Source of the DNA: a virus
IMG/VR virus record: IMGVR_UViG_3300005618_000045
Span: 1-29,987 of that record
Length of the DNA: 29,987 nt
Strand: one strand, 5' to 3'
Shown: in pieces, positions 3,394 to 9,808 of the stretch
Numbering within the stretch: position 1 is the first letter of the stretch
Layout: the number at the start of each line of letters is the position of its first letter
Translations under genes and position numbers: made by a program
The notes under the pieces: generated by a model
What the model was told of the DNA's origin: nothing
Seen by the model: only the letters and a program-made list of their open reading frames with translations
The model's database searches: none

Positions 3394-5433
3394 ATGACAA
3401 GTGGAATGCTCGAAAGGAGTCAGGTTGTCCCGAACGTTTACCAAAGCTATTATCAAGATGGTAAAAGAGATATTGTAGCCGAGGCAGATGCACGATATCA
3501 ACAGAATTTATCGGCTTGGCAGCTTTTCTTTTATGAGCAGTTAATTGACAGAAAAGTTTATCTTGGCGACCAGCGTTTTCTAAATATGTATTCAGGTTTG
3601 AGTTATGAGCATCAAAAATGGGTATTCAATAACTCAATGCCTGTAGTCAATATGGTTTGCGGACGTCAGCGTCAGCATCGCAAAGCAACTCAAATGATTC
3701 CAGTACATGGATCTAGCGATAAGACAGCATCTCAAGCAACCAAATGCATTCAATCAGCCTATTATAATGACGATACATATAACACTCATTCAGCATGTTT
3801 TAAAGAAGCAGCAGGCATAACTGGTCTAGCTTTAGAGCATTCTTGGATAGACTATAGGCGAGATCCTATTTGCGGAGACTTGCGCACTGAATGCCTTAGT
3901 GCTGACATGATAATGATGGATGCATTTTGGCGTGAAATGGATTTAAGCGATTGTCAATTCATACGCACTCGCAAATATCTCTGGAAAGAACAAGTTAAAC
4001 AGATGTTGCCGGGTCGAGAGCATGATATTGATATGCTCAATGACCAAGCTTATTTTGATACTAAGTTTACATACATGCCTCAGCAATATAATATCAGGCG
4101 TAAAGGTTTCCTAGCATATGATGAATATTGGTATTTAACCGAACGTATGGCAACATTTATTGTCGATCCTGAAACATATGAAAGCACGGAGGTGGACTTT
4201 GATCGAGAAGAAATGGAACAACTCAAAGTACAATTTCCGCAAGTTGTCGTGGTTAAGGAAAAAGTGCCTACTGTGCATCTTGCTATCATTGTTAACAATA
4301 CTTGCTTCTATGATGGGCCAAATCCTCTTGGCGTAGATATGTATCCTTTTATACCTTTTGTTGGGTATCATGATCTTGCTAATAATAACTATGCATTTCG
4401 TTACCAAGGTATTATTAGAAATATAAGAGATAGTCAATACCTTTATAATTACCGCAAGCAATTAGAATTGGACCTATTAGCGGCGCAATTTTCAGGTGTT
4501 GACGTCGAAGAAGATGCGTTAATTGATGATAGTGATGCTTTTAAGGTAGGACCGGGAAAAGTTAGATTCTTAAAGAAAGGTAGACTTAATGCGCTCGTTG
4601 ACAAGCCAGGAGCAAATATTAATCCTGCTAACTATCAGGCAACCCAATTCCTTAAAGAGGATATACAATCAAATGCCGGAGTTACGCCAGAATTGCTGGG
4701 ACAAGCGGAAGACAGTGATGTGGGTATTACAGAACAATTGCGTCAGGGTGCAGCTCTCACCACTTTACAAGAGTTATTCGACAACCTCGACTTATCACAG
4801 CGTAATGCTGGCAGGCTACATTGGGCGCTTATTCAGAAGAATTATACCCTTGGAAAGATTAGAAGGATGATCGAGGAAGACCCAACGAATGAATTCCGTG
4901 ATAAGTCATTCCAGAGATACGACGCTGTTGTTGCTAATGCGCCTCTAACAAATACTACAAAGCAACTTGCATTCATCCAGAAATACCAGCTATGGAAAGA
5001 TGGATTGCCTATCCCTGTCGATCAATTGCTTGCTGACGTTGATATGCAAGATAAAGACAAGCTAATAGAATCAATTCAGCAACAGCAACAGCAACAAGCA
5101 CAACAAGAACAACAAATGGCACAGCTTCAGATGCAGAATCAACAGATTGTTAATGAGTCATTGCAATCTAAGGCTATTAGCGATCGCGCACTTGCAGAAG
5201 AACGAATTCAGAAAGGCCACCTCGAACAAGTTTCATTGATGACTAAATACAATGAATCTGAGCATCAAAAAGCATCTGCAACACTTGATAAGGTTAAAGC
5301 TGCAAAAGAAGTGGAATCTATGCATATTGAAGATTTCGTTAAGGTATTTACCTTGATAGAAAATATTCAAAAAAGACAAGATGATAAAGAAATAGCAATG
5401 TCACAACCGAAAGGAGTTTCAAATGGGACATAG
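3394..5433 (+). CDS. Portal protein, P22 gp1-like
   Basis: A 679-residue protein directly after the terminase block. Its length and features fit the P22-type portal family (P22 gp1 is about 725 residues). These include an N-terminal R-Y-Q-Q-N-L-S-A-W-Q-like helix, the R-Q-R-Q-H-R-K segment near residue 93, and an aromatic- and Asp-rich core. A helical C-terminal region holds Q-rich and coiled-coil sequence (about residues 565-640, with a run of seven Gln), reminiscent of the P22 portal barrel. The dodecameric portal forms the DNA entry vertex, binds the large terminase and seats the tail. The ATG at 3394 has AGGTGA upstream. Its 3' end overlaps the next gene by 11 bases. Confidence 0.9.
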   Translation: MTSGMLERSQVVPNVYQSYYQDGKRDIVAEADARYQQNLSAWQLFFYEQLIDRKVYLGDQRFLNMYSGLSYEHQKWVFNNSMPVVNMVCGRQRQHRKATQMIPVHGSSDKTASQATKCIQSAYYNDDTYNTHSACFKEAAGITGLALEHSWIDYRRDPICGDLRTECLSADMIMMDAFWREMDLSDCQFIRTRKYLWKEQVKQMLPGREHDIDMLNDQAYFDTKFTYMPQQYNIRRKGFLAYDEYWYLTERMATFIVDPETYESTEVDFDREEMEQLKVQFPQVVVVKEKVPTVHLAIIVNNTCFYDGPNPLGVDMYPFIPFVGYHDLANNNYAFRYQGIIRNIRDSQYLYNYRKQLELDLLAAQFSGVDVEEDALIDDSDAFKVGPGKVRFLKKGRLNALVDKPGANINPANYQATQFLKEDIQSNAGVTPELLGQAEDSDVGITEQLRQGAALTTLQELFDNLDLSQRNAGRLHWALIQKNYTLGKIRRMIEEDPTNEFRDKSFQRYDAVVANAPLTNTTKQLAFIQKYQLWKDGLPIPVDQLLADVDMQDKDKLIESIQQQQQQQAQQEQQMAQLQMQNQQIVNESLQSKAISDRALAEERIQKGHLEQVSLMTKYNESEHQKASATLDKVKAAKEVESMHIEDFVKVFTLIENIQKRQDDKEIAMSQPKGVSNGT

Positions 5434-8184: not shown

Positions 8185-9808
8185 ATGTCCGGCCCGACAA
8201 CCTCCAATATTCTGCCTCCAGCTGTTCAGCAGCAATTGAGCATGAAATTATTGGCACGTCCTATGCCAGACTTGATTCATACTACAATGGGTTACCCCAT
8301 CACAATGGATCAACAAGCTGGCGATATTCTGAGACGACGACGTTATCAGAACTTGCTAACCGCTCCAGTGCCTTTAGGCAATGGAATTGTAGACCCACCA
8401 GCGCAGCAACTTACAGCGCTTGATATTGATGCTAGAATTGACTGGTATGGAACTTACATTATACTGCAAGAGCAGGTAATGTTGATTAACGAAGACCCTA
8501 GACGTATACATGGGGTCTATAAATCTTCTCTGATGGACTTGAAACCCTTCGCTATGGCAGCATAGAAAGGCAACAAGGGGCAAGATTATGGATGAAAATA
8601 TAATAGATTATTTTGAAATGAAATTATTGCAGAATCCTAAAAGAGAGGTGCAATCAGATGGTTACATTAAAGAAATCTATAATCAGCCTGAACGCAGTAA
8701 GCGAGAAGACCTTAAATATTACTATGTTTGTTTAGAAGAGGATAGTTGTAATTGTCCAAATCCTTGGCATACCTGTTTTGAAACAGATTCAAAACAAGAA
8801 GCTGAAGAATGGGTAAATAGGATGCCTCATAAACGTACATGGCATGAACATATTAGGGATGCGGTACTCTGAACACTATGGAAACATAGTGAGGCCAGCT
8901 GAGAAGATTTGGCCCGCCTAGATTACTAGGTCAACAAGTAACAGATTGGTGTTAAACAGCGCAGTGTCTACATTAGGCCAGTCTCTTCGAGAAACAGAAG
9001 ACCAATTGGCTCGTAGCATGATGGAGGGGGGTGCTCCGCCGATTAATTGTACCTCTGGTACCAACGGTAAGGCATATTGGGTTATTGCCGTTGTAAAATT
9101 TCCTCTGATTGAGGTGGAACTCTCTAATAGAGACAACACTGCGCAAGCGAAAGCAGCGTAATCGACTGAGTGAGGAAACTCGAAAGAGATGCGACAGTCA
9201 GGCCTCATAGGTGACTATGAGAGGGAGATCCGAAGAGGTTTCCCCGCCATAGAAATATGGTCAATAAAGTAACAGAAACGGACAACCCAACAAACATCAG
9301 CCCATTGGATTGCAGCAAAGTCGTTCGCTTATTGCGCACTGCTAATGCACAATTCATCATGGACTTGATTGAAGGCGAAGACAAATTCGGTACTGGTCCA
9401 GTTCGTACCTGCTTCTTTGGCTTAACTCACACTAACCTTAGTGCTGACTTAGATCAAATGGTGGGCTTCCAGAACGTTGCGCAGTATGCGAATACAGCAA
9501 ACCTATTGCAAGCGGAATGGGGTACTATTAGAAACATCCGTTTCTTATTGTCCTCTGTTGGTAGTATTTCGCCTAATGCTTCTGCTAATGGACAAGACGT
9601 TTATAATATCTTTATTCCAGGACAGGAAAGCTATGACATGGTTGATCTTGATGGCTATAGTGCGCAGTTTATCTATGCACCGCCAGAGATTGCATCACCA
9701 CGTTTAAGATTGTATCAAACAGCAGGCTGGAAAATGGCGCAAGTATTCAACATCACTAACACCTCTTGGATCGTCAACTTACGTTGCACGCTTCAAGTAG
9801 CACTATAG
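8185..9808 (+). CDS. Major capsid protein, N4-gp56-like, split into three exons
   Basis: Exons 8185-8499, 8949-9068 and 9281-9808 join in phase 0 to give 320 residues (105+40+175). They are separated by two group I-like introns. The rebuilt protein reads through the family-typical D-P-V-L-N junction followed by L-G-Q-S-L-R-E-T-E-D (exon 1/2). It continues with an A-E-W-G-T-I-R-N-I-R-F core and a C-terminal hydrophobic strand (exon 3). These resemble the N4-gp56 major capsid family of HK97-fold shell proteins. Without splicing, exon 1 runs on only 21 codons to TAG at 8563-8565 and exon 2 runs to TAA at 9159-9161, so no full coat protein is made. The scaffold lies just upstream, as expected. 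Confidence 0.88.
8500..8948 (+). ncRNA. Group I-like intron 1 in capsid gene (449 nt, ORF-bearing)
   Basis: The exon end AGACCCT (8493-8499) pairs with the guide GGGGTCT (8512-8518), seven pairs ending in the diagnostic U.G at the 5' splice site. The intron ends in G8948. The exon 2 start GTGT can pair with ACAT (8508-8511) as P10. The core includes P7 (GGGTA 8811-8815 with TACTC 8865-8869), P8 (ATGCC 8822-8826 with GGCAT 8841-8845) and J8/7 AGGGATGCGG (8855-8864). Three 3' hairpins follow: 8874-8891 with a GAAA loop, 8893-8914, and 8917-8930. All match intron 2 in order with compensating changes. An ORF fills the P6-P8 region. P3 to P6 were not resolved. Confidence 0.85.
8588..8872 (+). CDS. 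Intron-encoded protein of unknown type (94 aa)
   Basis: A 94-residue protein inside intron 1. It has an acidic N-terminus and a central aromatic stretch (K-Y-Y-Y-V-C-L-E-E-D-S-C-N-C-P), giving a small Cys cluster. The C-terminal half (E-A-E-E-W-V-N-R-M-P-H-K-R-T-W-H-E-H) contains three His. It lacks LAGLIDADG, GIY-YIG and a recognisable HNH or His-Cys box signature, and is shorter than most homing endonucleases. Its last about 60 coding bases also form P7, P8 and J8/7 of the ribozyme, and its TGA stop lies next to P7'. The ribosome site is GGGGCAAG upstream. It may be a maturase, a very diverged nuclease or an unrelated passenger. Confidence 0.65.
   Translation: MDENIIDYFEMKLLQNPKREVQSDGYIKEIYNQPERSKREDLKYYYVCLEEDSCNCPNPWHTCFETDSKQEAEEWVNRMPHKRTWHEHIRDAVL
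9069..9280 (+). ncRNA. Group I-like intron 2 in capsid gene (212 nt, minimal)
   Basis: The exon end CAACGGT (9062-9068) pairs perfectly with the guide GCCGTTG (9087-9093), closing with the U.G pair. The intron ends in G9280. P7 is GACTG (9164-9168) with CAGTC (9195-9199). P8 is GAG-GAAA-CTC (9172-9181). J8/7 is AGAGATGCGA (9185-9194), nearly identical to that in intron 1. Hairpins follow at 9204-9221 (GTGA loop), 9223-9244 and 9247-9260 (GAAA loop), then the conserved tail GGTCAATAAAGTAACAGA. At 212 nt it is close to the smallest self-splicing group I introns known (Azoarcus tRNA-Ile, about 205 nt). TTGGGTT (9077-9083) can pair with AACCCAA near the start of exon 3 (9284-9290). Confidence 0.85.

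Follow-up and report, generated by a model that had tools for sequence, protein, structure and literature searches.

Group I introns interrupt phage protein genes in T4, where the td, nrdB and nrdD introns all lie within genes for enzymes and give read-through translations without a terminal Ala-Ala. The Bastillevirinae possess a further phage family of group I introns, several of which have been spliced in vitro or in vivo (PMC11878797); the genes named there are again enzyme genes, and a text search of that paper turned up neither capsid nor tmRNA. For structural genes, group I-type introns with reported splicing were described in the mycobacteriophages LittleE (capsid) and Baka (tail) (PMC3706429). 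Translating the upstream exon frame into these introns gives ...GGWNSVATAAA-stop for LittleE and ...SDDLAAAAA-stop for Baka, i.e., an Ala-Ala end in both, which is not mentioned in the passages of PMC3706429 consulted. Because they have a near-identical 156-bp stretch in common (PMC3706429), LittleE and Baka are not two fully independent cases, and their exons, from phages of a mycobacterial host, are unrelated to the capsid gene considered here. A C-terminal Ala-Ala on truncated proteins is also the hallmark of the tmRNA (ssrA) tag, whose last five or so residues are matched by some of the intron tails described below; the tmRNA tag is added in trans, whereas the intron tails are encoded in cis and close by ordinary termination. 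The terminal Ala-Ala-COO is the main determinant for ClpXP (PMC7652416).

Ribosomes can reach a group I intron before splicing (PMC3073962), and the usual view is that self-splicing introns guard against them by an immediate stop codon. The introns described here seem instead to admit ribosomes and then to label the resulting fragment for destruction. We found no earlier report of an intron-encoded degron in the open-access literature searched; subscription papers lay outside the search.

The window, i.e., the whole 29,987-nt stretch of viral DNA analysed here, contains a structural module with a terminase large subunit, a P22-type portal and a major capsid protein. The capsid gene, on the plus strand like every window feature given below, consists of exon 1 (8185–8499, codons 1–105; phrog_1357 major head protein and continuous 320-aa homologues), intron 1 (8500–8948, 449 nt, site 105.0, which is empty in homologues), exon 2 (8949–9068, codons 106–145; spliced frame and homologue alignment), intron 2 (9069–9280, 212 nt, site 145.0; splice-aware alignment, core parse and empty sites) and exon 3 (9281–9808, codons 146–320 plus the stop; phrog_1357, E 3e-16). 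Searching viral contigs with exon 3 returned 380 relatives; 80 of these loci were analysed, and both window introns were placed by splice-aware protein-to-DNA alignment over this set. Joining 8499 to 8949 and 9068 to 9281 yields a single-frame protein of 320 aa, with the second junction in frame and a predicted junction peptide CTSGTNG-DNPTNIS. Among the 75 loci spanning codons 130–160, the codon 145 site holds an intron in 10, the window included, and is empty in 65; 31 of these 65 read exactly CTSGTNGDNPTNIS, which is the predicted junction peptide. One locus (L002) has introns identical to those of the window and is not independent of it.

We consider it very likely that 9069–9280 is a group I intron; the splice sites, covarying core and empty sites establish this at the sequence level, and splicing activity is inferred. 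The 5′ splice site follows U9068, the last nucleotide of the P1 5′ strand CAACGGT (9062–9068), which pairs with the GCCGTTG of the internal guide sequence (9087–9093; guide-sequence site prediction and core parse) such that U9068 and G9087 form the splice-site U.G pair; P1 covaries, with double changes in 5 of 6 pairs. By sequence, a further part of the guide (9079–9086) is able to pair with the 3′ exon at 9281–9288, giving a P10 of 7 out of 8 pairs. The core follows as P3, in which TTTCCTC (9099–9105) pairs with GAGGAAA (9172–9178; double changes in 7/7 pairs), P4, in which GGTG (9113–9116) pairs with CACT (9137–9140; 4/4), the P5 hairpin (9121–9133; 2/3), P6 (9141–9159, GCGC/GCGT with a GAAA-capped P6a; 4/4) and P7, in which GACTG (9164–9168) pairs with CAGTC (9195–9199), P7 and the P3 3′ strand resting on both the core parse and covariation. 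The P8 hairpin CUC-GAAA-GAG (9179–9188) was recognized from sequence and fold by inspection only. The J8/7 heptamer GATGCGA (9188–9194) is identical in 27 of 41 parsed introns, three P9-type hairpins (9204–9221, 9223–9244 and 9247–9260) are supported by folding, and the terminal G at 9280 (omega-G) marks the 3′ splice site given by the splice-aware alignment.

The helices were parsed in 41 distinct introns and counted in 40, window intron 1 being mis-parsed and excluded; owing to its spacing rules, the parser recovered no more than 11 of 70 capsid introns, and most of the 40 come from other phages. Covariation was counted directly, without a covariance model. Across P1, P3, P4, P5, P6 and P7, 98.3% of cells are paired versus 73% after shuffling, and 24 of the 29 pairs show double changes, which carry more weight than the percentage paired because the parser required most of the P3, P4 and P7 pairs. 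P7 is paired in 98% across the parsed introns, with GACTG/CAGTC and GACTA/TAGTC variants. For P1, 99% of pairs form versus 54% after shuffling, with U.G at the splice site in 41/41 introns; since the parser demanded the U and the G at this position, the meaningful test is pairing at the remaining P1 positions. Prediction from the internal guide sequence alone put the 5′ splice site where the protein alignment puts it in 42 of 43 sister introns, and the minimum free energy of the intron 2 fold has z = −4.1 relative to dinucleotide shuffles.

Rfam model RF00028, a library test rather than a definition of group I introns, gave no match to intron 2 up to E 10. However, the T4 td, nrdB, LittleE and Baka introns were likewise unmatched at the Rfam gathering threshold, so the missing match is uninformative. 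The P7.1/P7.2 elements of subgroup IA (T4 type) are absent, as only 3 nt separate P7 (ending at 9168) from the P3 3′ strand (beginning at 9172); we therefore assign no IA label, which is another difference from the T4 introns.

An earlier reading of this DNA, made from the sequence alone, had proposed a 212-nt group I-like intron at 9069–9280 with the CAACGGT/GCCGTTG pairing, an end at G9280, the J8/7 element, P7 as GACTG/CAGTC and three 3′ hairpins, all of which held. It had named the joining of 9068 to 9281 as support, and the frame is indeed kept, with a peptide identical to that of 31 insert-free homologues; it had named homologues that translate 9069–9280 as grounds for refutation, and in 65 of the 75 relatives spanning the site the insert is missing and the reading frame runs on uninterrupted. 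It had also proposed a covariance check over relatives, in which the core helices do covary (40 introns, window intron 1 excluded). Its statement that 212 nt is near the lower size limit failed, as the same gene has 196-nt introns at codon 36 and one of 204 nt at codon 145. Its P7 for intron 1, GGGTA near 8811, is unlikely: homology with two site-145 introns (L054 and L076) points to AGTA (8696–8699), just before a P3 3′ strand GAGAAGA (8703–8709) and within a small ORF. What this sequence-only reading missed was the exon frame that stays open over the first 93 nt of intron 2 and the ssrA-like Ala-Ala-stop at its end.

Translated from the 5′ exon, intron 2 extends the exon frame by 30 codons as KAYWVIAVVKFPLIEVELSNRDNTAQAKAA followed by a stop (9069–9161), across P1, P3, P4 and P5 and into P6. 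The tail ends ...AQAKAA, the Ala-Ala-stop being GCA GCG TAA (9153–9161), which overlaps the P6 3′ strand (9156–9159); Lys rather than Leu precedes the Ala-Ala. The tail of intron 1, RRIHGVYKSSLMDLKPFAMAA, ends ...FAMAA at GCA GCA TAG (8557–8565), in frame, with the stop ending 66 nt into the intron. At the clean sites from codon 78 to 215, 38 of 40 distinct introns end in Ala-Ala-stop in the exon frame, the other two ending in KVA and IDA. Counting all 61 distinct introns from codon 78 onward, i.e., with the mini-introns described below and one full codon-87 intron (VA), the ends are AA in 57, VA in 3 and DA in 1. At the site of intron 2 itself, one relative (L083) has a tail ending EAEA rather than AA. 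In L010 the ending is ...GQAEHYALAA, which resembles the E. coli ssrA tag AANDENYALAA.

Several controls bear on these counts. Read in their other two frames, these 40 introns give Ala-Ala-stop in 1 of 80 cases, and the C-termini of other ORFs in the loci do so in 6 of 503 (1.2%). Introns of the same family at codon 36 lack the Ala-Ala motif in all 24 distinct cases; 26 of 27 of them stop within 0–2 codons, the exception (L054) ending ...VLPA. The tail is spelled in 14 codon/stop combinations, of which 12 encode Ala-Ala, and its location differs: it falls in the P5 loop in most introns, in P6 in window intron 2 and two relatives (L059 and L060), and, in the long introns at codon 105, in the P1–P2 segment. 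Relative to the exon, the core motif has a constant frame in each of the 34 introns at sites other than codon 36 where it was found, over three insertion phases, whereas at codon 36 it is scattered 8/5/1 over the three frames. Because the introns are related, the counts are not independent and the binomial figure computed from them overstates the significance; the strength of the case lies in the controls, the shifting tag position and the cultured phages rather than in the raw counts.

The same end occurs in inserts that have no room for a ribozyme core. At codon 87, 20 relatives have inserts of only 36–51 nt with a P1 and a terminal G, and P10 is concordant in 20/20 (ATGG with CCAT, ACGG with CGT). 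Ten codons downstream of each mini-intron, at codon 97, lies a complete group I intron. Of the 20 mini-introns, 19 end in Ala-Ala-stop and one ends in VA. Among the codon-97 introns downstream of these tag-bearing inserts, 1 of 20 has the Ala-Ala-stop and 19 lack the motif. Since codon 87 is nearly always tagged and codon 97 almost never, the tag sits at the first in-frame stop of the precursor, which fits an action on the protein. It is possible that the mini-introns, with their own guide sequence and the same degron, borrow the ribozyme core 31 nt downstream, and one core may thus remove two introns, those at codons 87 and 97. The mini-introns (site 87.1) were noted in L054 near 3777–3812 and at 19 further loci, namely L003, L004, L011, L016, L018, L019, L021, L023, L027, L029, L031, L032, L033, L040, L052, L056, L059, L062 and L067; at these loci, pairing occurs between the mini-intron and the 31-nt micro-exon.

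Scans with core motifs added related introns from other phages and genes. Where the exon frame is clear, 42 of 90 end in Ala-Ala-stop versus 2 of 180 in the other frames; about half are without the tag, and many stop at once. Some tails resemble tmRNA tags (ANDSSFALVA, ANSAFFALTA, AEQFALAA, YDYALAA), as are VANDEKFALVA and ASNDAVFALAA in two loci (L251 and L266) for which the exact 5′ splice sites are unsettled. A second class of tails (VVAFS, VVALS, EVAIS, AYGVS, AYGTC) was seen in capsid-like genes (L196, L205, L290, L324, L327, L343, L368) and could perhaps be the degron of another host. In cultured phages, a DNA search with intron 2 gave no match, and one with the intron of L251 found related introns in Desulfovibrio phage 7757 and Roseobacter phage CRP-118, whose read-through has no Ala-Ala. 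In the latter (OR420741, 2480–2883) a group I-like intron seemingly splits a ribonucleotide reductase gene that is annotated as two CDS; in the former (OR395405, around 2978) the intron lies in an unannotated large gene and its tail is ...STWAR. The AA ending is also absent from T4 td, nrdB and nrdD, from the Pf-WMP3 DNA polymerase intron, from the CRP-118 reductase intron and from the Tuc2009 capsid intron, which follows a 55-aa exon. The tag may go with long exons of assembly proteins; with few cultured cases, this is suggested, not proven.

Taken as a whole, the explanation we favor as likely is that intron 2 is a group I intron whose tail serves as a degron for clearing the truncated capsid protein to which unspliced RNA gives rise. 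Neither RNA nor protein data exist for this phage; proteolysis is inferred, as are translation of the tail in vivo, removal of the fragment by a host protease and harm from the truncated capsid protein. In this proposal, intron 2 would leave the capsid pre-mRNA by guanosine-initiated transesterification, an activity that is inferred, and with transcription and translation coupled, some ribosomes would enter the intron before its excision. Their exon frame would run on for 30 codons to ...AQAKAA-stop, or in intron 1 to ...FAMAA-stop, and the truncated capsid protein would gain a C-terminal Ala-Ala degron like that of the tmRNA tag. The tagged fragment would presumably be degraded by ClpXP or by a related protease of the host, and truncated subunits that could otherwise poison capsid assembly would be removed. 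We propose that the harm from unspliced message would thereby be limited and the intron would be tolerable in a very highly expressed gene. A pool of such introns, some with LAGLIDADG genes, would have invaded the gene repeatedly by means of new guide sequences. On the degron reading, a protein-level quality-control signal is written inside a ribozyme core, and the reading gives a concrete account, open to test, of how a selfish intron could persist in a gene for capsid subunits, which are likely poisonous when truncated.

Among the alternatives, the one that survives best, although unlikely, is that the tail and stop mainly steer ribosome traffic, either protecting the rest of the core or coupling translation to an intron ORF, with the Ala-Ala incidental. 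In its favor, an early in-frame stop is typical of most group I introns (reviewed in PMC3073962), and nearly all codon-36 introns have one. However, an immediate stop would serve this purpose better, and the frame is instead open for about 4 to 32 codons, mostly into P5 or P6; a plain stop needs no preceding Ala-Ala, yet 57 of 61 introns have it; and the tag is present also without an intron ORF, e.g., in intron 2.

Two further alternatives appear very unlikely. The first takes intron 2 as an ordinary small group I intron in which the Ala-Ala-stop is an RNA structural motif, e.g., a P5-loop contact, that falls in frame by chance; GCTGCATAA is indeed located in the P5 loop of many introns. However, the motif is absent from 24/24 distinct codon-36 introns and from 19/20 codon-97 introns, and the tag shifts among P1–P2, P5 and P6 and varies in spelling while the exon frame is kept across three phases. 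The second takes the intron-extended truncated capsid protein as a functional second product, either a minor capsid or a regulatory protein, for which the open frame into the intron speaks. Against it, the extension follows at least six exon lengths (codons 78–215) and is mostly a read-out of core RNA, termination at codon 36 is immediate, and many relatives are intron-free. Finally, an in-frame coding insertion or pseudogene scar at 9069–9280, suggested by the open first 93 nt, was rejected and is all but excluded by the in-frame stop at 9159–9161 and further stops, the empty-site homologues and the covarying ribozyme core.

The evidence on the host is slight. Exon 3 relatives in genome_contigs were confined to two Chlamydiota MAGs (L082, Simkaniaceae, and L083, Parachlamydiaceae). 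Of 19 genomes sampled from the class to which L082 belongs, 18 have a tmRNA tag ending in AA and the remaining one a tag ending in VA, with endings such as ERLAA, LLLAA, LQAA, FALAA and ARAA. Tailed phages of environmental chlamydiae are thus hinted at as a possibility, the host being only suggested by two MAG contigs, for which binning can err.

This single capsid gene is an intron hotspot in these phages, with at least ten sites: codons 36, 78, 87, 97, 104/105, 117, 133, 145, 182 and 215. No one gene has more than 4 introns of at least 150 nt, and 17 of 60 full-length genes have none of that size. The sequence-only reading had inferred core kinship of introns 1 and 2 and either intron duplication or repeated invasion. 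The kinship held, as did repeated invasion, introns of one family lying at 10 or more sites of the gene among the 80 exon relatives. Best-match comparison does not support the origin of either window intron by duplication of the other. Codon-145 introns from other phages come nearest to intron 2, with that of L059 as its best match (220 bits), the best matches of intron 1 are L054_145, L076_145 and L020_105 (about 218 bits each), and each window intron is absent from the 14 best hits of the other. Because the two are not each other's closest relatives, simple duplication is unlikely, and we regard them as having arrived independently out of a shared pool.

Long members of the family carry LAGLIDADG endonuclease genes, which lie in the sense orientation in codon-105 introns and in antisense in those at codon 145; intron 2 contains no separate ORF. 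At the site of intron 2, introns of ~1.1 kb in three loci (L034, L066, L083) carry antisense LAGLIDADG genes; intron 2 may possibly represent an allele, lacking the endonuclease, at a homing site. Intron 1 contains a 94-aa ORF of no known family (8588–8872; ORF calls and sequence), which overlaps its P7, P3′ and P7′. The short ORFs of L054_145 and L076_145 share with it a core-encoded QPERSKRED stretch.
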